From Phycisphaerales bacterium (GTDB taxonomy: Bacteria > Planctomycetota > Phycisphaerae > Phycisphaerales > UBA1924), in contig JAVJVK010000013.1 of NCBI GenBank assembly GCA_040221175.1, forward strand, positions 186,001 to 250,000: DNA of 64,000 nucleotides, given 5' to 3'. Numbering within the stretch: the stretch's first letter is position 1; each line of letters starts with the position of its first letter. A program made the position numbers and the translations under genes. The notes below the pieces were generated by a model that had not been told where the DNA came from, searched no databases, and saw only the letters and a list, made by a program, of their open reading frames with translations. Below are positions 14,906 to 49,580 of the stretch, in pieces.

Positions 14906-17233
14906 GTGCCCCAGAGCCTCTTCAAGGACGACCGCCCACCGCCCGCCGGCCCCTTCCTGGCCGTCGCCCTCGAACGCTCCATCGACGGCAGGACGCTCAC
15001 ATATGCCCCCCCGGCCGACAGCGAGGAGGAGGCTGAGGCGTTGGTCGGGCGCGCGTGCATGGCGCCACTCGGCCGTGGGGGCAGGGGCGGCGCGCCCACG
15101 CGGGGAGTGATCGTCGCGGCCGGCGGCCCGGAACTGCTCGACGGCTTCGATCCCCACAAGGTCCGCCAGCTCCTGGCCGTCGGCGACGCGAAGCTCCCCG
15201 AGGGCGTGCTCGAGCTTGGCCGGTGGATAGCGGAGTACTACGCGTGCCCGCTGGGCATGACGCTGGCCGCCATGCTGCCCGCGGCGGTCAAGAAGGCGGT
15301 GGGGCGGAAGAAGCGGACGGCACTCAAGCCCACGGGCAACCAGATCGACGCCAAGCTCCCCCCCGCGACGAGGAAGGCGCTCGAGGGCCTGGCCGACATC
15401 GACGCCGACGCCTGGCCGCTCGAGGAGCGCGAGCTGGTCGGCCGCCTCGAACTAAAGAACGCCAGCCCCATCCGCCGCCTGGTGTCCCTCGGCCTGCTCG
15501 AAGAGGTGACGCTCACCGACGTCGTCGCGCGCACGCAGGACGCGACGCCGCTGGCCCTGGAAACCGGCCCGGCGCCCACGCCGACCGCCGAGCAGAAGGC
15601 CGTCATCGACGGGGTCGCATTGGAAGGCTTCAGCACCCACCTGCTCTTCGGCGTCACCGGCTCGGGCAAGACCGAGGTCTACCTCCAGTTACTCGAGCGC
15701 GTGCTGGCGTCGGGCAAGTCGGGCATCGTCCTCGTCCCCGAGATCGCCCTCACGCCCCAGCTCTCGTCCAGGTTCATCGCAAGGTTCGCCCCCGTGCTCG
15801 GCGAGCGCGGCGTGGCAGTCTTACATTCGGGCCTGAGCGCCGGCCAGCGCCACCGCGCGTGGGACGCGGTCTCGCGTGGGCTCGCCCGCGTGGTCGTCGG
15901 CCCGCGCTCGGCACTCTTCGCGCCGCTGACGAACGTGGGTCTGATCGTCGTCGACGAGGAGCACGCCAGCGACTACAAGCAGGACCAGGCCCCGCGCTAC
16001 CACGGCCGCGACGCCGCCATCAAGCGGGCCCAGATCGAGGGCTGCCCGGTGCTGCTGGGTTCGGCAACACCAAGCCTCGAAAGCTGGCGCAACGCCCAGC
16101 TCGGCCGCTCCACCCTCTGGCGCATGCCCACCCGCGCCCCCGGTTCGGCGGGGTTGCCGCGGGTCGAGGTCGTCGACCTGGCCGAAGAGCGCAAGGCCAG
16201 CCGCGAGCGCGGCCAGCGCATGGAGCTGCTGGGCCCAACATTAGAAAGCGCCCTGCGCGACACGCTCAACGACGGCGGCCAGGCCGTCATGCTCCTTAAC
16301 CGCCGCGGCTTCGCCCGCGTGGTCGCCTGCCCCGACGCCATGTGCGGCTGGACGCTCGCCTGCGACTCCTGCTCGGCCGCCATGGTCTTCCACCGCAAGG
16401 GCGTGCTCAGCAGGCGGGGACTCGTCCGCTGCCACCACTGCCTCGCCGAACAGATGATGCCCAAGAGCTGCCCCGCCTGCGGCAAGAAGACCATCCTGCT
16501 CGGCCGCGGCACGCAGCGGCTGGAAGACGAGCTCGCCGAGCGCATGGGCCTGGACGATTCCGAGATGGCCCGCATGGACGGCGACACGATGCACCGCGCC
16601 GTCGACTACCAGGGCGTGCTGGGCCGCATCGCCGACGGCTCGATCCGCGTGCTGCTGGGCACGCAGATGATCGCCAAGGGGCTCGATTTTCCTAATATTC
16701 GATTGGTCGGCGTGGTCGACGCCGACACCGCCCTGGGCATCGCCGATTGGCGCTGCCAGGAGCGGACCTTCCAACTCGTCAGCCAGGTCGCGGGAAGGGC
16801 GGGCCGGGGCGACAAGCCGGGAAGGGTCATCGTCCAGACACTCAGCCCCGATCTTCCCAGCATCCAGGCCGCCGCCGCCCACGACTACGAACGCTTCGCC
16901 GCCGACGAGCTCGCCGTGCGACACCAGGCCCACCTGCCGCCATTCACCCGCGCCGCCTGGATCGTCGCTCGCGACCGGCAGTACGCCAAGGCCGAAGAGC
17001 GAGCCTTCGAGATCGCCGGCCTGCTGGCCGAGGCTTTCGAGGACAAGGCAAGGATCGAGGGCCCCGCCCCGGCCCCATTGGAGCGCGCCCACGACGAGTA
17101 CCGCGTGGGGCTGGAGGTCTACGCCGCCAGCGCCGCGATTTTGAGGGACGGCCTGCTGAAGATCCGCGCCCAGCACGGCCTGGTCAGTGACGCGAGCGTC
17201 GCCATCGACGTCGATCCGGTCAGCATCTGGTAG
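14906..17233 (+). CDS. priA: Primosomal protein N' (replication restart helicase)
   Basis: SF2 3'-5' DNA helicase that reloads DnaB at stalled forks. 775 aa. The N-terminal DNA-binding domain is present. Walker A is GVTGSGKTEVYLQ, Walker B box VVDEEHASDYKQ, and the strand-loading zinc module reads CPDAMCGWTLACDSC ... CHHC ... CPACGKK (about residues 475-535). Late helicase motifs LLGTQMIAKGLDFPN and QVAGRAGRGDKPGRV are intact. Start GTG 14906: TACCCT at 14895-14900 lies 5 nt upstream and no Shine-Dalgarno is seen, suggesting leaderless translation. It lies 30 bp after the metalloprotease gene but looks independently expressed. Confidence 0.96.
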   Translation: MPQSLFKDDRPPPAGPFLAVALERSIDGRTLTYAPPADSEEEAEALVGRACMAPLGRGGRGGAPTRGVIVAAGGPELLDGFDPHKVRQLLAVGDAKLPEGVLELGRWIAEYYACPLGMTLAAMLPAAVKKAVGRKKRTALKPTGNQIDAKLPPATRKALEGLADIDADAWPLEERELVGRLELKNASPIRRLVSLGLLEEVTLTDVVARTQDATPLALETGPAPTPTAEQKAVIDGVALEGFSTHLLFGVTGSGKTEVYLQLLERVLASGKSGIVLVPEIALTPQLSSRFIARFAPVLGERGVAVLHSGLSAGQRHRAWDAVSRGLARVVVGPRSALFAPLTNVGLIVVDEEHASDYKQDQAPRYHGRDAAIKRAQIEGCPVLLGSATPSLESWRNAQLGRSTLWRMPTRAPGSAGLPRVEVVDLAEERKASRERGQRMELLGPTLESALRDTLNDGGQAVMLLNRRGFARVVACPDAMCGWTLACDSCSAAMVFHRKGVLSRRGLVRCHHCLAEQMMPKSCPACGKKTILLGRGTQRLEDELAERMGLDDSEMARMDGDTMHRAVDYQGVLGRIADGSIRVLLGTQMIAKGLDFPNIRLVGVVDADTALGIADWRCQERTFQLVSQVAGRAGRGDKPGRVIVQTLSPDLPSIQAAAAHDYERFAADELAVRHQAHLPPFTRAAWIVARDRQYAKAEERAFEIAGLLAEAFEDKARIEGPAPAPLERAHDEYRVGLEVYAASAAILRDGLLKIRAQHGLVSDASVAIDVDPVSIW

Positions 17234-17262
17234 CCGCTGCGTGAAGGGATCGGCGGAAGGGC

Positions 17263-18654
17263 CTACTCGGGGCAGCCGGCTTGGAACGCGTCCTGGAACG
17301 CCAGGAAGTCGAAGACCGTCAGCTCGCCGTCGCCGTCGAAGTCGGCGGCCGCTTCTCCGTCTTCAAAGAGGTTCAGGAAACTCAGGAAGTCGTAAATGGT
17401 CAGCGCGCCGTCGAGGTCGAGGTCGGGGGCGCAATCGAAGCACGCCAGGTCGTAGGCGTGGACGAGGCCGACGGAGAAGCCGCCGAAGAAGGCGTCGGGC
17501 GCGCTAACGGCGGCGCGGTTGCCGTTGGTGGCCACGCCCAGGCCGAAGCGGCCGAGCCGGCCGTCGGGGTCGATGCGCGCCGCCTGCGACCACACGCCGT
17601 CGGGGCCGCGGCGGAAGACGTACGCGGCGCCGGTCTGCAGCCACACGTCCTCCTCCGTTCCCGCGATGAGCGTGTCGCCGTCGAGGTCCATGCGAATGCC
17701 CAGCGTATGGTTCTCGCCGGCCGGCTCATGCGTCAGTTCCTGAGTGAGTTGCCACCGATCATCTCTCAATTCATACAAGTAAATGACACCCTGATTTTCG
17801 TACGTACGATCCGCGCCACGACCGGCGATGGCCAGCGTGCCACCATCGAGGTGAATCGTTGAACCAAAGGCCGGTCCGAATCTCGGCATGCTCGCAATGT
17901 CCGGCGGAATGATTCGCTGGACGAACTCGAGTCCCTCACCGGGAACGCGCCGGTAGACAAACACCGACCCGCCGAGATCGACTTCAGTATCGTCGACACT
18001 CGCACCAATAAATACCCACTGTTGATGCATAGCAATAGAACCACCAAAACCAGCGCTCGCGGGCAGCGGCGAAACCACCTCATCAACAAATACCCAGCCC
18101 TCCGATGATTCTTCATAGAGCAGCACGCTTCCGGGCGACTCGGCCTGATAGAACAGCGCGGCGTCGTCCCGTAGCGTCGCCGAACCCCCGAAGCCCAGAA
18201 GAAAACGGGGCTCGCGTGGAACGAACTGGTACACCTCGTTCCACTGCTGGCCGTCGTACTCGTAGAGGTATGCCTTGCCCGACTTCTCGCCATCCACCAT
18301 GGCCCCACCCGCGCCCACGAGCAGCCGGTCGCCATCGCGGCTGAACGACCCGCCAAACCCCGAGGCCAATGTGATATCAGGTGGCACGATGTGCTGCGTG
18401 CGTTGCCACAAGCCGTCGGCGTCGAGTTGGAAGACGTGCAGCGCACCCGTGGCGCAATCAAATGGATCAGGGCAGAGCGTCGGTTCGCCGGGATTGCCCA
18501 CAAAGAGGAACTGATCGTCCATGGAAACCCGGCCGAAGTTCCCGCCCTCGGGCATGCCGAGTGGCTCGAGCGTCTGGGGTTCGCACTGGGCGAGGACGGT
18601 GCTGGCGAGGCCCAGAGTGGCGGTGGAAAGAGCGAAGGCTCGGAGGGGTCTCAT
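17263..18654 (-). CDS. Exported FG-GAP/propeller-like protein with GC-type dockerin
   Basis: 463 aa. Signal peptide MRPLRAFALSTATLGLASTV ending in LAQ. Residues about 35-405 are repeated units of the type GGSFSRDGDRLLVGAGG...GKAYLYEYDG, with GxAYVFRR or GSVFVYRR in each, a seven-or-so-bladed integrin-alpha-like (FG-GAP) propeller. The C-terminus (412-463) is a GC-dockerin with paired YDFLSF and FDFLAFQ units ending GCPE. ATG 18654 is supported by the signal peptide and by TTGCAA-N17-CACAAT ending 6 nt upstream, so the mRNA is probably leaderless, unlike the other dockerin genes. Longer in-frame sequence upstream is repeat array, not protein. Likely a surface or secreted binding protein. Confidence 0.85.
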   Translation of the reverse strand: MRPLRAFALSTATLGLASTVLAQCEPQTLEPLGMPEGGNFGRVSMDDQFLFVGNPGEPTLCPDPFDCATGALHVFQLDADGLWQRTQHIVPPDITLASGFGGSFSRDGDRLLVGAGGAMVDGEKSGKAYLYEYDGQQWNEVYQFVPREPRFLLGFGGSATLRDDAALFYQAESPGSVLLYEESSEGWVFVDEVVSPLPASAGFGGSIAMHQQWVFIGASVDDTEVDLGGSVFVYRRVPGEGLEFVQRIIPPDIASMPRFGPAFGSTIHLDGGTLAIAGRGADRTYENQGVIYLYELRDDRWQLTQELTHEPAGENHTLGIRMDLDGDTLIAGTEEDVWLQTGAAYVFRRGPDGVWSQAARIDPDGRLGRFGLGVATNGNRAAVSAPDAFFGGFSVGLVHAYDLACFDCAPDLDLDGALTIYDFLSFLNLFEDGEAAADFDGDGELTVFDFLAFQDAFQAGCPE

Positions 18655-18689
18655 GACCACATTGTGACGCAATCGGGCGGCGATTGCAA
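18654..18689 (-). promoter_or_regulatory. Sigma-70-type promoter for the 463-aa dockerin gene
   Basis: On the minus strand TTGCAA (18689-18684), a 17-nt spacer and CACAAT (18666-18661) form a near-consensus promoter. The start codon ATG (18654-18652) begins 6 nt after the -10, so initiation near the A of ATG would give a leaderless transcript. A run of ten C (18701-18710 on the plus strand) sits 11 bp upstream of the -35. Confidence 0.7.
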
Positions 18690-18786
18690 GGCGAATGCGT
18701 CCCCCCCCCCGCTCGTCCTCGATTACTGCGGGGCCAACGACACGGGAACTCTTCCAACGTCCCATCACTGTCCCCGCCCGATCCCC

Positions 18787-19038
18787 ACCGAGAACGCCTC
18801 CGCCAGCAGCGAAGACCGTTGTGGAAGCTGCCAGAACGCCCCTTCCAGCAGGGAATACGGCCCCGGCAGCAGGGAGAACGGATTTCCCACCTGGGAAGGC
18901 CGTTCTGGCAGCAGGGAGGGCGATCATCCCAGCAGGGAAGATGGTTCTGGTAGCAGGGAAGATCGTTCCGGCAGCTGGGAAAACGGTTCTCCCAGCTGGG
19001 AGAATCGTTTTTGGTTGAACGAAAACCGTACCCGCGTC
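18787..19038. repeat. Degenerate 21-bp tandem repeat array, 12 units
   Basis: Twelve back-to-back 21-bp units with no spacers. The best conserved (18850-18996) start AGGGA or TGGGA, have a central G-A-rich block followed by CGTTCTG-like bases and end GGCAGC or CCCAGC. Units at both ends are more diverged, and the last one merges into the left arm of the hairpin. The period equals seven codons and all units are in register, so all three plus frames read as heptapeptide repeats, but no start signal precedes them. Confidence 0.85.
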
Positions 19039-19062
19039 CACCGGATACGGTTTTCGTTCAAC
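19014..19062. repeat. 17-bp perfect inverted repeat (hairpin) at the end of the array
   Basis: Left arm 19014-19030 (GTTGAACGAAAACCGTA) is exactly complementary to right arm 19046-19062 (TACGGTTTTCGTTCAAC), with a 15-nt loop. A further 12-nt copy of the right-arm core (GGTTTTCGTTCA) occurs at 19071-19082. There is no T tract after either arm, so a simple Rho-independent terminator is unlikely. Confidence 0.9.
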
Positions 19063-19258
19063 GCTGGGTTGGTTTTCGTTCATGATCGGGAAGGCCCGGG
19101 AGGGCGGCACTCGGGATTCGGCAATCGGCGGGGAGCGGCCGGTGAATCTGCCCGATGACAGGATGCCGATTGCCGGGCGCCGAATCCGGCCTTCCCCACG
19201 CCCCACAACTCCACCCATCGTTCACCCGCCCGGGCCCGCCGTGTCGATACTCTTGCCC

Positions 19259-20131
19259 GTGATCGTCTACCTCAACGGCCAGTACCTCCCCGCCGCCGAC
19301 GCACACGTCAGCGTGTTCGACCGCGGCTTCCTCTTCGGCGATGGCGTCTACGAGGGCGTCCGCGTCTTCGACGGCACCGTCATCTGCCCCGACCGCCACG
19401 TGAGCCGGATGGCCGGCGGGCTGGCCGAGGGCCGGGTGCACTGGGATCCGCGCCAGCTCCCGGCGATCTGCCTGGAGCTCTGCCGCCGCAACGGGCTGGC
19501 CAACGCGTTCATGTACGTCCAGGTCACCCGCGGCACGCCGCCCCCCGGCGAGCCCGTCCGGGCCCGGACCATGAGGGCCCAGGGCGAGCCCACCGTCTTC
19601 GCCTTCGCCACGCCCCAGCCGGCGATGGACCACTACGCCGAGCCGCCCACCACGACCCTCGCCCTGGTCGAGGACCGCCGCTGGGACCGCGGCCACCTCA
19701 AGAGCATCAGCCTGCTGGGCAACGTGCTGGCCGCCTACGAGGCACAGGCCCAGGGTGCCCAGGAGGTCGCCATGCACAAGGGCGGCCTGCTCACCGAGGC
19801 CTGCGCTTCGAACATCATCATCTCGGTCGATGGCCAGCTTGCGACCCCCTCGCTCGACAGCGCCTCCATCCTCGAGGGCGCGACCCGGGCCCGCTGCCTG
19901 GCCCTGGACCCGGCAATCGTCGAGCGGCCGGTGGGCGTCGACGAGTTGCTGCGGGCCGACGAGGTCATGCTCGTGGGCACCACCAGCATCGTCACCAGCG
20001 CCCTGAGCATCGACGGCAAGCCGGTGGGCGACGGACGCGTCGGCCCGCAGGCCCGCCGCCTGCTGGAGCTGGTGATGGACGACTGCCGGAGCCAGGTGGA
20101 AGCCGCCAAAGAAGCCCTCGCGGTCGGCTGA
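19259..20131 (+). CDS. D-amino-acid aminotransferase-like PLP enzyme (class IV)
   Basis: 290 aa fold-type IV PLP aminotransferase, of the D-amino-acid / branched-chain aminotransferase family. It opens IVYLNGQYLPAADAHVSVFD with RGFLFGDGVYEGVRVF, as D-alanine aminotransferases do. The PLP lysine is in RGHLKSISLLGN, and TEACASNIIIS is the cofactor-phosphate segment. The most likely reaction is D-Ala plus 2-oxoglutarate to D-Glu plus pyruvate, but a branched-chain or aminodeoxychorismate-lyase-like role cannot be excluded. GTG 19259 fits the family N-terminus and has TACTCT 5 nt before it. The stop TGA ends at the base before the murD ATG, so the two are co-transcribed. Confidence 0.82.
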   Translation: MIVYLNGQYLPAADAHVSVFDRGFLFGDGVYEGVRVFDGTVICPDRHVSRMAGGLAEGRVHWDPRQLPAICLELCRRNGLANAFMYVQVTRGTPPPGEPVRARTMRAQGEPTVFAFATPQPAMDHYAEPPTTTLALVEDRRWDRGHLKSISLLGNVLAAYEAQAQGAQEVAMHKGGLLTEACASNIIISVDGQLATPSLDSASILEGATRARCLALDPAIVERPVGVDELLRADEVMLVGTTSIVTSALSIDGKPVGDGRVGPQARRLLELVMDDCRSQVEAAKEALAVG

Positions 20132-46328: not shown

Positions 46329-47435
46329 ATGAGCACCGATTCACCCCCTCCATCGTCCGCACCACCGACCGAGCCGGGGCCCATGCCCACGCCGCCCGCG
46401 CGGCCGCCGTTCCTGCGGCTGCTGGTGGGCGGGGGGCTCATGGGGCTGGCCAACCTCGTGCCGGGCATCAGCGGGGGCACCATGCTCGTGGCGGCGGGGG
46501 TGTACCGCCGGTTCGTCGACGCCGTCAGCGACGCCACGCGGCTGCGGCTCTCGGCCGCCACCATCGTCACGCTGGCCCTGATCGTGCTGGGGGCCGGCTC
46601 GGCCATCGCGCTGGGGGCCCTGCCGGTGTCCTACGGGCTCGCCGAGGCTCGCTGGGCCATGTACGCCCTGTTCATCGGGCTCACGATCGGGGGCGTGCCC
46701 TCGCTGTATGCGCTGGTCCGGCCGCTGAGCCCCCGGCTGGTGGCCTTCGCCCTGCTGGGGCTGGCGGGCATGCTGGCCGTCGTGGCGGCCCAGGAGATGG
46801 GCGCGGGCGGCGGCGGCGGGGGCGCAAGTGGCGGTGGGGGCGGTGGGGGTTGGCTCATGCTGGTCGTCGCCGGGGCCGCGGGGGCGGCGGCGATGGTGCT
46901 GCCGGGGGTCAGCGGGGCCTACCTGCTCCTGCTGCTGGGCCAGTACGAGGCCGTCGTCACCGCCATCAAGGACCTCTCCCGCGGCGACGCGTCGGCCCTG
47001 GCCACGGTCGTGCCCATCGGCGCGGGCGTGCTGGTGGGCATCGCGGGGGTCAGCAACCTGCTCCGCTGGCTGCTGCACAAGTACGAGAAGGCAACCCTGG
47101 CCGTGCTGCTGGGGCTGCTGCTGGGCGCGCCGGCGGGGCTCTACCCCTTCCGCGAGGCCGTGCCGCCCGCGGCGGGCGAGGTCATCAAGGGCCAGATCCT
47201 CACGCAGGAGACCGCGGCCGAGGTCGAGCCCAAGGACTGGCCCACGCGGGCGTTCATGCCATCGCTCGGGCAGGTCGCCGCGTCACTGGGGCTGGTCGTC
47301 GTCGGCGGCGCCGCGACCATGGGCGTCGCCCGGCTTGGTCGTCGCGCTGACGCTGGGGGTCGGCGCGCTGACGCCGGAGGCGGGCGCGCCGGCGCCGAAG
47401 GCCGGGCGCCGCCAGCCGCCGAAGCGGGGGACTGA
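46329..47435 (+). CDS. DUF368 family polyprenyl-phosphate transporter (PopT-like)
   Basis: 368 aa with about eight membrane helices. The DUF368 signature is clear: GLMGLANLVPGISGGTMLVA and a second half AAAMVLPGVSGAYLLLLLGQY. DUF368 proteins (PopT) were shown to recycle undecaprenyl phosphate across the cytoplasmic membrane. A poly-Gly insert of about 18 residues (GGGGGGASGGGGGGG) interrupts the middle. The last 51 residues, an Ala/Gly/Arg tail, overlap the lgt C-terminal coding region on the opposite strand for 153 bp. Confidence 0.9.
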   Translation: MSTDSPPPSSAPPTEPGPMPTPPARPPFLRLLVGGGLMGLANLVPGISGGTMLVAAGVYRRFVDAVSDATRLRLSAATIVTLALIVLGAGSAIALGALPVSYGLAEARWAMYALFIGLTIGGVPSLYALVRPLSPRLVAFALLGLAGMLAVVAAQEMGAGGGGGGASGGGGGGGWLMLVVAGAAGAAAMVLPGVSGAYLLLLLGQYEAVVTAIKDLSRGDASALATVVPIGAGVLVGIAGVSNLLRWLLHKYEKATLAVLLGLLLGAPAGLYPFREAVPPAAGEVIKGQILTQETAAEVEPKDWPTRAFMPSLGQVAASLGLVVVGGAATMGVARLGRRADAGGRRADAGGGRAGAEGRAPPAAEAGD

Positions 47436-48551: not shown

Positions 48552-48887
48552 GGCCTGAGTTTAGCGGACGTGCGGCCCGCGCCCGCGCGAGCCGCGGGCG
48601 GGCGGGCCCGGCGTCGCCGGAGGGCCCGCGGCGCGGGTTGGCGGTCCGAAAACACGATTTCTCTGCTCCGCGCAACGCGTTGCGCGGCCTGCGCAACAGT
48701 GCCTTCGCCCTGCGCAACGCGTTGTGCGGCCCGCGCAACGCGATACCTGCCCCGCGCAACGCGATGCGCGGCCCGCGCACCAGCGCCTCGGCCCCGCGCA
48801 ACGCGTTGCGCAGCCCGCGCACCGCGCTCCCGGCCCCGCGCAACGCGGCGCCCGCCCCGGGCGCGCGTGCCCCGGGCCCGGCGTGCG
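48552..48887. other. 336-bp intergenic region with second 21-bp array
   Basis: Between lgt and the GC-dockerin gene, both on the minus strand. The 10-unit array at 48668-48877 fills most of it, starting 10 bp past the dockerin gene stop. The left part holds TAAACT (lgt -10) and a GC-rich stretch. No gene is seen. Confidence 0.8.
48668..48877. repeat. 21-bp tandem repeat array, 10 units, partly palindromic
   Basis: Ten contiguous 21-bp units with no spacers. Most begin CCGCGCAACGCG or CTGCGCAAC and end GGC or GCC; the best contain the perfect palindrome CGCAACGCGTTGCG (48670-48683, 48796-48809). Units ending in GGC or AGC alternate with units ending in a CC pair. The plus frame reads as heptapeptides (PRNALRG-like) but has no start signal. 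The last unit (48857-48877) is degenerate. Confidence 0.88.
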
Positions 48888-49580
48888 TCAGGAACAACCC
48901 GCGTCGAAGCGGTTCTGGAAGGCCAGGAAGTCGAACACCGTCAGCTCGCCGTCGAAGTCGAAGTCGGCGATGGCCTCGCCCGCGTCGAAGGCGTTGAAGA
49001 AGGCAAGGTAATCGAAGAGGTCCAGCTGCCGGTCCTGGTTGATGTCGGCCCGGCAGGCGACGACCGTCAGCGTGGCGTTGCCCTCTTCCAGGAGGTGCAA
49101 GCGCGAGTGGTACGAGGCGCAGTATTCGCACTCGAACACCGAGTACCTTGCCGTTCGCGTCTGGAAGGCGATCTCCCATCCGAAGACCGGGGCGGGGTGG
49201 TTGGCGGTGTAGGTGGCCGACCAGAAGGGCATCGGGTCCGTCGGGTCGGCACGGATGTCGTGGAACTGGATCTGCGCGGCGACGATGTTCTCGATGCCCG
49301 CGATGGTCTCGAACCCGCGCTGCGTGCCCGGGCCGTCCATCGGCGACAGGAGGCGGTGATCGGAGAGGTAGTCCGAGCCGGTGTCGCACACCAGGCTCGT
49401 GAAGACGTAGGCGATGGCGAAGTCCACGCGCGACTCGAAGTGGGCGCGCAGCTCGATGGTGGCGCTCTCCCCACGCTCGATGATGGGCGGGTCGACGACG
49501 ATCTCGATGGCGTTGGGCGAGGTCTGGGCGGCGGCGGTGCTGGTTGCGATCAGGATGGCGATCGACGCGGCGGTGCGCAT
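48888..49580 (-). CDS. Exported protein with GC-type dockerin
   Basis: 230 aa. Signal peptide ending STAAAQ. Residues 22-175 form one beta-rich domain with no named family: ERGESATIELRAHFESRVDF and later VFGWEIAFQTRTARYSVFEC, with Cys at about 148 and 151. The C-terminal 50 residues are a complete GC-dockerin: DINQDRQLDLFDYLAFFNAF and DFDFDGELTVFDFLAFQNRF, ending DAGCS. GGAGGA 7-8 nt before ATG 49580 is a strong ribosome-binding site. The beta-rich part could be a cohesin-like or PEP-type domain, but I cannot show that. Confidence 0.83.
   Translation of the reverse strand: MRTAASIAILIATSTAAAQTSPNAIEIVVDPPIIERGESATIELRAHFESRVDFAIAYVFTSLVCDTGSDYLSDHRLLSPMDGPGTQRGFETIAGIENIVAAQIQFHDIRADPTDPMPFWSATYTANHPAPVFGWEIAFQTRTARYSVFECEYCASYHSRLHLLEEGNATLTVVACRADINQDRQLDLFDYLAFFNAFDAGEAIADFDFDGELTVFDFLAFQNRFDAGCS

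Follow-up and report, generated by a model that had tools for sequence, protein, structure and literature searches.

A class of non-coding tandem arrays with a fixed 21-bp period and locus-private sequence near accessory genes of Phycisphaerae

The 64,000-nucleotide stretch analysed here (hereafter the window; contig JAVJVK010000013.1 of a Phycisphaerales bacterium) carries a row of contiguous 21-bp units in a gap between two divergent genes, and the question is what kind of element such an array represents and why its period is kept. The gap covers 18655–19258, as delimited by a home-made codon-based gene caller. The gene on its left (17263–18654, minus strand) encodes a 463-aa FG-GAP repeat protein (PF14312), whose N-terminus by eye resembles a signal peptide and which bears a GC-type dockerin (NF041540, 42 bits versus a cut-off of 29), as the initial annotation had proposed. 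The gene on its right (19259–20131, plus strand; from the same caller) is a conserved neighbour that we take to be aminotransferase-like; the names aminotransferase, priA, and lgt used here are presumptions from the look of the proteins.

The array itself was placed at 18780–19031 (no strand assigned) and comprises ~12 diverged units with the imperfectly self-complementary consensus TGGCAGCAGGGAAAACGGTTC; the number 12 was set by iterative consensus, and the outer units are weak. Its combined lag-21/42 score of 0.685, compared with 1000 dinucleotide shuffles that averaged 0.307 and peaked at 0.405, confirmed the contiguous, in-register units that had been reported in the divergent gap. The lag-21 and lag-42 identities (18787–19038) are 0.57 and 0.63, respectively, the 42-bp step fitting slightly better than 21. 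The unit length given at first was upheld, but the units are diverged, not identical, with a mean identity to the consensus of 0.71 (~71%). They follow one another without spacers, which sets the array apart from a CRISPR with its identical repeats and unique spacers, again as first annotated. Some units are dyads, imperfect ones included, the best being the perfect 18-bp dyad TTCTCCCAGCTGGGAGAA at 18987–19004 (no strand assigned; axis 18995.5, 9/9 pairs), and the array folds better than its own column-permuted versions on both strands (z −2.7 and −3.1). The hairpin seen earlier at the array end is present at 19014–19064 (plus strand; 17-bp outer stem, −30.8 kcal/mol), overlapping the last unit on the side of the aminotransferase-like gene. 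A search of the 3.44-Mb genome with the array letters returned, outside the array itself, only matches of at most 25 bases with E values of 0.13 or worse, which lends no support to mobile DNA in the sense of a sequence family, one of the roles suggested at the outset.

A second array with unrelated letters lies at 48667–48880 of the window (no strand assigned; palindromic unit CCGCGCAACGCGTTGCGCGG; score 0.696 versus a shuffle maximum of 0.542), between an lgt-like gene and a GC-dockerin gene (48888–49580, minus strand; gene caller and NF041540 search). The initial annotation of the first array mentioned neither this array nor the dyads, imperfect ones among them, of the first. Weak 21-bp periodicity at 47322–47428, over the overlapping ends of two convergent genes, was counted as coding. 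When the genome was sampled with 20 stretches of 20 kb in addition to the window (464 kb of 3.44 Mb), a lag scan of periods 10–33 placed 14 of 16 non-coding arrays at period 21, with one each at 12 and 14. Strict TRF rows in non-coding DNA of at least 100 bp, which can overlap one another, fell at periods 21 (8 rows), 42 (10), and 84 (2) and at no other; lenient TRF (at least 120 bp), whose rows carried 0–15% indels, contributed weak periods of 22 and 24 at two sites of the window and, within 21-bp arrays, of 10 and 14. The same lag scan of 386 kb of a congener (G006) gave 13 arrays at period 21, 5, 4, and 3 at 12, 14, and 28, and single ones at 15, 18, 19, and 24, part of these being 7-bp-unit arrays; strict TRF there gave periods 7 (1), 21 (11), 42 (4), 63 (4), 84 (1), and 144 (1). 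One array at period 21 was found in each of G004 and G005 (200 kb), and none at 21 by lag scan in G002, G021, G056, and G051, the gene model being thin for G056 and failing for G051.

Extrapolation from 12 arrays in the 400 kb of samples other than the window gives ~100 arrays per chromosome; over 50 arrays, the number of units was 5–20. No sequence motif common to the arrays was found, and the unit letters are private to each locus. The window array is a member of a class of non-coding elements defined by their period, with the letters free. Uniqueness to this locus, which the initial annotation had named as a ground for doubt, is true of the sequence but false for the class, since arrays occur elsewhere in the genome, in the genus, and in other genera. 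Separately, 7-bp tandem repeats, or what resemble their relics, are seen in the window at 19100–19200 and also at L175:8166-8333, L109:20236-20471, and L108:7317-7501 (GGGCATT, CTGAGTT, and TCGGGTG types); the 7-bp-unit arrays at L175:8166 and L239 are without the self-complementarity of the 21-bp arrays.

The register was examined in 73 arrays (L175:8166 left out) by taking the consensus from the 126-bp detection window and seeking further units outside it. Phase 0 yielded 135 further units, compared with an average of 3.75 over the remaining 20 phases and 3.3 for a shuffled consensus; in 54 of the 73 arrays, one or more additional units stood in phase. With 2224 of 9240 positions in recognisable units deviating from the consensus, indels at an ordinary rate would presumably have disrupted the phase of units so diverged. 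B-DNA has 10.5 bp per turn, making 21 bp two turns, and the window array combines a spacing of whole helical turns with a kept register, as does a helically phased, iteron-like array. Periods 10/11 and 31/32, though also suited to helical phasing, are essentially absent; helix geometry alone therefore fails to explain 21. DNA curvature was also considered as a selected trait and set aside: phased roll, calculated with roll values from general background knowledge, is about twice that of intergenic DNA, yet not above that of column-permuted arrays, so that the period itself accounts for the bending without added selection.

A period of 21 bp without frame shifts is also what a translated heptapeptide repeat, with seven codons per unit, would give. 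None of 50 arrays is without an open frame, the mean number of open frames is 4.2 of 6 versus 3.2 in column-permuted arrays, stop density is 0.0072 versus 0.0107 in GC-matched intergenic DNA, and the FG-GAP reading frame passes through the window array without a stop. Column variability, however, carries no codon-phase signal (p<0.05 in 2 of 50 arrays; Fisher p 0.57, n=50), in agreement with the earlier view of the window array as non-coding; for the codon-phase, open-frame, and roll/stop tests, duplicates and the 7-bp-unit arrays L175:8166 and L239 were dropped. Moreover, the frame of the gene below reaches through the array at some loci and not at others, and promoter-like boxes stand between array and gene. 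A protein-coding repeat, marked by third-position variability and a consistent frame, was therefore rejected as the main reading, frames varying among loci. The dinucleotide TA occurs at 0.37 of expectation in arrays versus 0.55 in intergenic DNA, and since TA depletion cuts stops without coding, coding is disfavoured rather than excluded; we regard translation of the arrays as very improbable.

Self-complementarity is in excess across the class, with a mean z of −1.66 against column-permuted arrays and 28 of 56 arrays below −1.5 (a few arrays counted twice, and duplicates and the 7-bp-unit arrays L175:8166 and L239 kept), and many arrays are without it. A universal palindrome in the consensus was considered and dropped (mean 6.6 of 10 pairs versus 5.9 expected), the folding test being the stronger one. 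The excess is present on both strands and would suit an RNA-level element, that is, a series of hairpins in a transcript of the array, acting as attenuator, terminator, or small RNA and shielding the downstream promoter from read-through. In line with this, T4 runs occur on the gene-proximal side of 16 of 51 arrays and on the distal side of 2 of 51, and terminator-like hairpins directed toward the gene occur on the proximal side of 12 of 51 versus 3.7 in shuffled sequence. Terminator-like sites, however, also exceed the shuffled level on the distal side (8 versus 2.7) and on the proximal side in the opposite direction (7 versus 3.3), and a terminator in every array was rejected, the excess being modest and present on both sides. 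An RNA should furthermore accommodate indels in its loops or spacers, but the arrays hold their register, and an Rfam search of 18500–19300 gave no family, the matches lying far below gathering scores.

At the window locus, the dockerin gene is preceded by predicted sigma70-like boxes TTGCAA-N17-CACAAT (18661–18689, minus strand), which end 6 bp before its ATG; the array begins ~90 bp above the −35 box, and a paralogue (L281) is preceded by the same boxes at the same spacing. Judging from these boxes, the promoter of the dockerin gene likely lies between the array and the start codon; the array would therefore stand outside the mRNA of that gene, unless another promoter exists. The small-RNA source proposed in the initial annotation thus gained no support from this layout, and we hold a role at the RNA level to be rather improbable.

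The placement of the arrays is not even among genes. A frequent array neighbour is an uncharacterised ~230-aa family, here called X: in the samples, 7 of 14 X genes border an array, compared with 44 of 1138 genes overall. Among gaps of at least 300 bp, arrays were found in 6 of 11 next to X genes and 7 of 19 next to dockerin genes versus 6 of 129 others (Fisher p 3.7e-5 and 2.0e-4). X showed no Pfam family above cut-off and only sub-threshold NCBIfam matches. Its predicted structure (3 sequences; mean pLDDT 73.6, pTM 0.37) comprises a helical hairpin and a sandwich matched by fibronectin-III domains, the best match of the model to the PDB having an E value of 1.1e-3 with none at 0.001 or below; the model gives no hint of a DNA-binding role for X. 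There are 39 X matches in the genome of the window and 2–52 in congeners; six of seven genus genomes hold 20–52 matches and G002 holds 2 (X loci L192–L251 and others). No X gene lies within the 64-kb window.

In 54 distinct X loci from seven genus genomes (six duplicates removed), a 21-bp array was found within 800 bp on the 5' side in 27 and on the 3' side in 1, the latter preceding a gene that by eye is succinyl-CoA-ligase-like, whereas periods 18, 20, 22, 24, and 27 gave 0 of 54 on either side. A detectable array is absent at half of the X genes. At orthologous X genes, arrays keep their place and period across species while their letters have diverged; L192, L193, and L199 have a common inverted repeat, which in L199 carries a paired change and in L194 is retained with mismatches. 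The search for relatives in other Phycisphaerales, proposed in the initial annotation, was fruitful at X loci of the genus and of other genera alike. Outside the genus but within the family, 26 of 36 matching genomes were given an X locus, and an upstream 21-bp array was found in 17 of these 26 loci and in 11 of 18 genera; at 4 of the 26 (L254, L260, L264, and L277), another 5' period also scored at least 0.55. Among nine further X loci (L339 and eight from other genera; L335 is almost without 5' flank), L336, which comes from another family of the order, has an array within 800 bp, and L338 has one at a greater distance. From the 27 loci L316–L342, 14 were examined, plus L339; by position, most of the others are genes already seen as L195–L277. 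Pooled, 18 of 35 X loci beyond the genus have an array, compared with 2 non-coding 21-bp arrays in randomly chosen stretches of seven other-genera genomes totalling 400 kb, 60 kb of which (G029) had a poor gene model.

For the FG-GAP dockerin genes, the side is less clear. Paralogues in the genome of the window have an array upstream in 7 of 20 and downstream in 1 of 20, while those of congeners have one upstream in 3 of 23 and downstream in 6 of 23 (two loci dropped as too short); pooled, 10 of 43 are upstream and 7 of 43 downstream, with no clear side. One array (L014) lies between convergent genes. The dockerin set of G000, a 3.4-Mb genome, is unusually large: with 150 of 240 candidates scored, the FG-GAP/GC-dockerin protein gave at least 151 matches, many of which cover just the ~55-aa dockerin tail.

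Above X genes, sigma28-type boxes TCAAG-N15-GCCGAT are enriched, with a score of at least 10 in 14 of 52 X genes versus 36 of 978 genes, and the spacer is 15 in 13 of the 14. Eight of these 14 X genes have an array, and in seven of the eight the boxes stand between array and gene; arrays thus lie above promoter-like sequence at several X genes as well as at the window gene. The X-gene boxes agree with the sigma28 consensus TAAAGWWY-N11/12-RYCGAWRN as given in the accessible part of PMC8762339. A sigma factor of the FliA type is among the encoded proteins (TIGR02479, above cut-off). From their sequence, the X family and its sigma28-type boxes may possibly form an unrecognised FliA regulon in Phycisphaerae.

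The history of the window locus bears on the origin of its array. In G001 and G005, the aminotransferase-like gene comes immediately after the priA-like gene, with neither an FG-GAP gene nor an array between them, and the closest congener relative of the window FG-GAP protein is only 47% identical; the gene and its array are therefore probably a lineage-specific insertion. The place directly above the aminotransferase-like gene is taken in G003 by a dockerin gene, as judged by reading the sequence, and in G006 by an X gene that has an upstream array of its own. Comparison of the window (17233–19259) with L030, L031, L033, and L034 showed accessory genes at this site that differ per species, with no such gene at all in two species, and the site is possibly an insertion hotspot. 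Such exchanges of accessory genes, and the missing gene and array at the orthologous junction, are what one would see if the array were a scar at the edge of inserted modules, recognised by its structure in the manner of an integron attC, a structure-recognised site. No common termini were seen, however, and no recombinase was noticed beside the arrays on casual inspection; moreover, orthologous X genes of different species retain their arrays, and the same array sequence is not dispersed. This reading appears to us quite improbable.

A mutational origin, in which replication slippage or template switching in this lineage adds DNA in steps of 21 (set, for example, by a protein footprint) and leaves mostly functionless arrays beside tolerant accessory genes, would account for the private letters and for an array adjoining a lineage-specific gene. 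It also finds favour in arrays whose units barely differ and which are therefore probably young: L101:8444-8695 consists of near-identical 21-bp units, the first two inverted at its edge, and may show how arrays begin. The register kept in diverged arrays, the frequency of arrays at X loci of other genera over random stretches, and the 27-to-1 preference for the 5' side of genus X genes all argue against it, and we consider a purely mutational origin unlikely, if still a serious contender.

Our best reading, held tentatively and at somewhat less than an even chance, is that the arrays are DNA-level, helically phased multi-site elements near promoters of accessory genes. A fixed 21-bp register would set every unit on one face of the helix, where an oligomerising DNA-binding or architectural protein could assemble unit by unit and so determine the local state of the DNA upstream of the promoter, through activation, silencing, or insulation. 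Slippage or conversion in steps of 21 would keep the units of an array alike, and selection would remove out-of-register indels; selection as the cause of the register, the bound protein, and the effect on expression are steps that we infer. Among the roles offered in the initial annotation, the protein-binding array fits best, the protein itself being putative. Against the multi-site reading stand the array-less half of the X genes, the unclear side at FG-GAP genes, the convergent genes of L014, and the lack of a common motif, which is unusual for a protein site. A bolder version, which we advance as doubtful, is that the element is defined by its period alone: a lineage-specific factor would read phased similarity or structure and not letters, and each paralogous gene, notably X with its sigma28-like promoters, would have a private version renewed by local amplification.

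Regulatory DNA is usually found through a common sequence, whereas an exact two-turn period with private letters, tied to particular gene families in many genera, would be missed by motif searches. The arrays offer a direct test of whether register can be selected while sequence stays free, and they point, in Phycisphaerae, both to an undescribed process of amplification or architectural factor and to a gene family that is large and uncharacterised. The open-access literature searched, with most subscription papers outside its scope, contained no description of an array class with an invariant non-coding period.

Among known systems, the iterons of plasmid origins are direct repeats of ~17–22 bp, close to two turns of the helix, to which an oligomerising protein binds; unlike them, the arrays number ~100 per chromosome by the above extrapolation, stand beside promoters of unrelated genes, and have private letters. 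Tandem repeats above promoters of surface-protein families are also known as 'tuning' or contingency loci, whereas most arrays here are diverged inside and therefore unlikely to be hypermutable. A survey of bacterial satellites describes mixed repeat lengths, many repeats coding for amino-acid repeats, and few satellite-rich species (PMC6749651, accessible part); the arrays resemble satellites and minisatellites as non-coding tandem arrays scattered in a genome, but differ in an invariant non-coding period tied to gene families, none of which is described in that part of the survey. REPs, according to the accessible part of PMC3733652, are palindromic, extragenic sequences of 20–40 bp present in many copies per genome, reported also in Planctomycetes, and have a genome-wide common sequence with a GTAG or CGTC tag. 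The arrays are like REP/BIME elements (PMC3733652) in being short-unit, palindromic, extragenic, and many per genome, and the window array is itself palindromic and intergenic; in place of a shared, dispersed palindromic sequence, however, they combine locus-private letters with a fixed tandem period.
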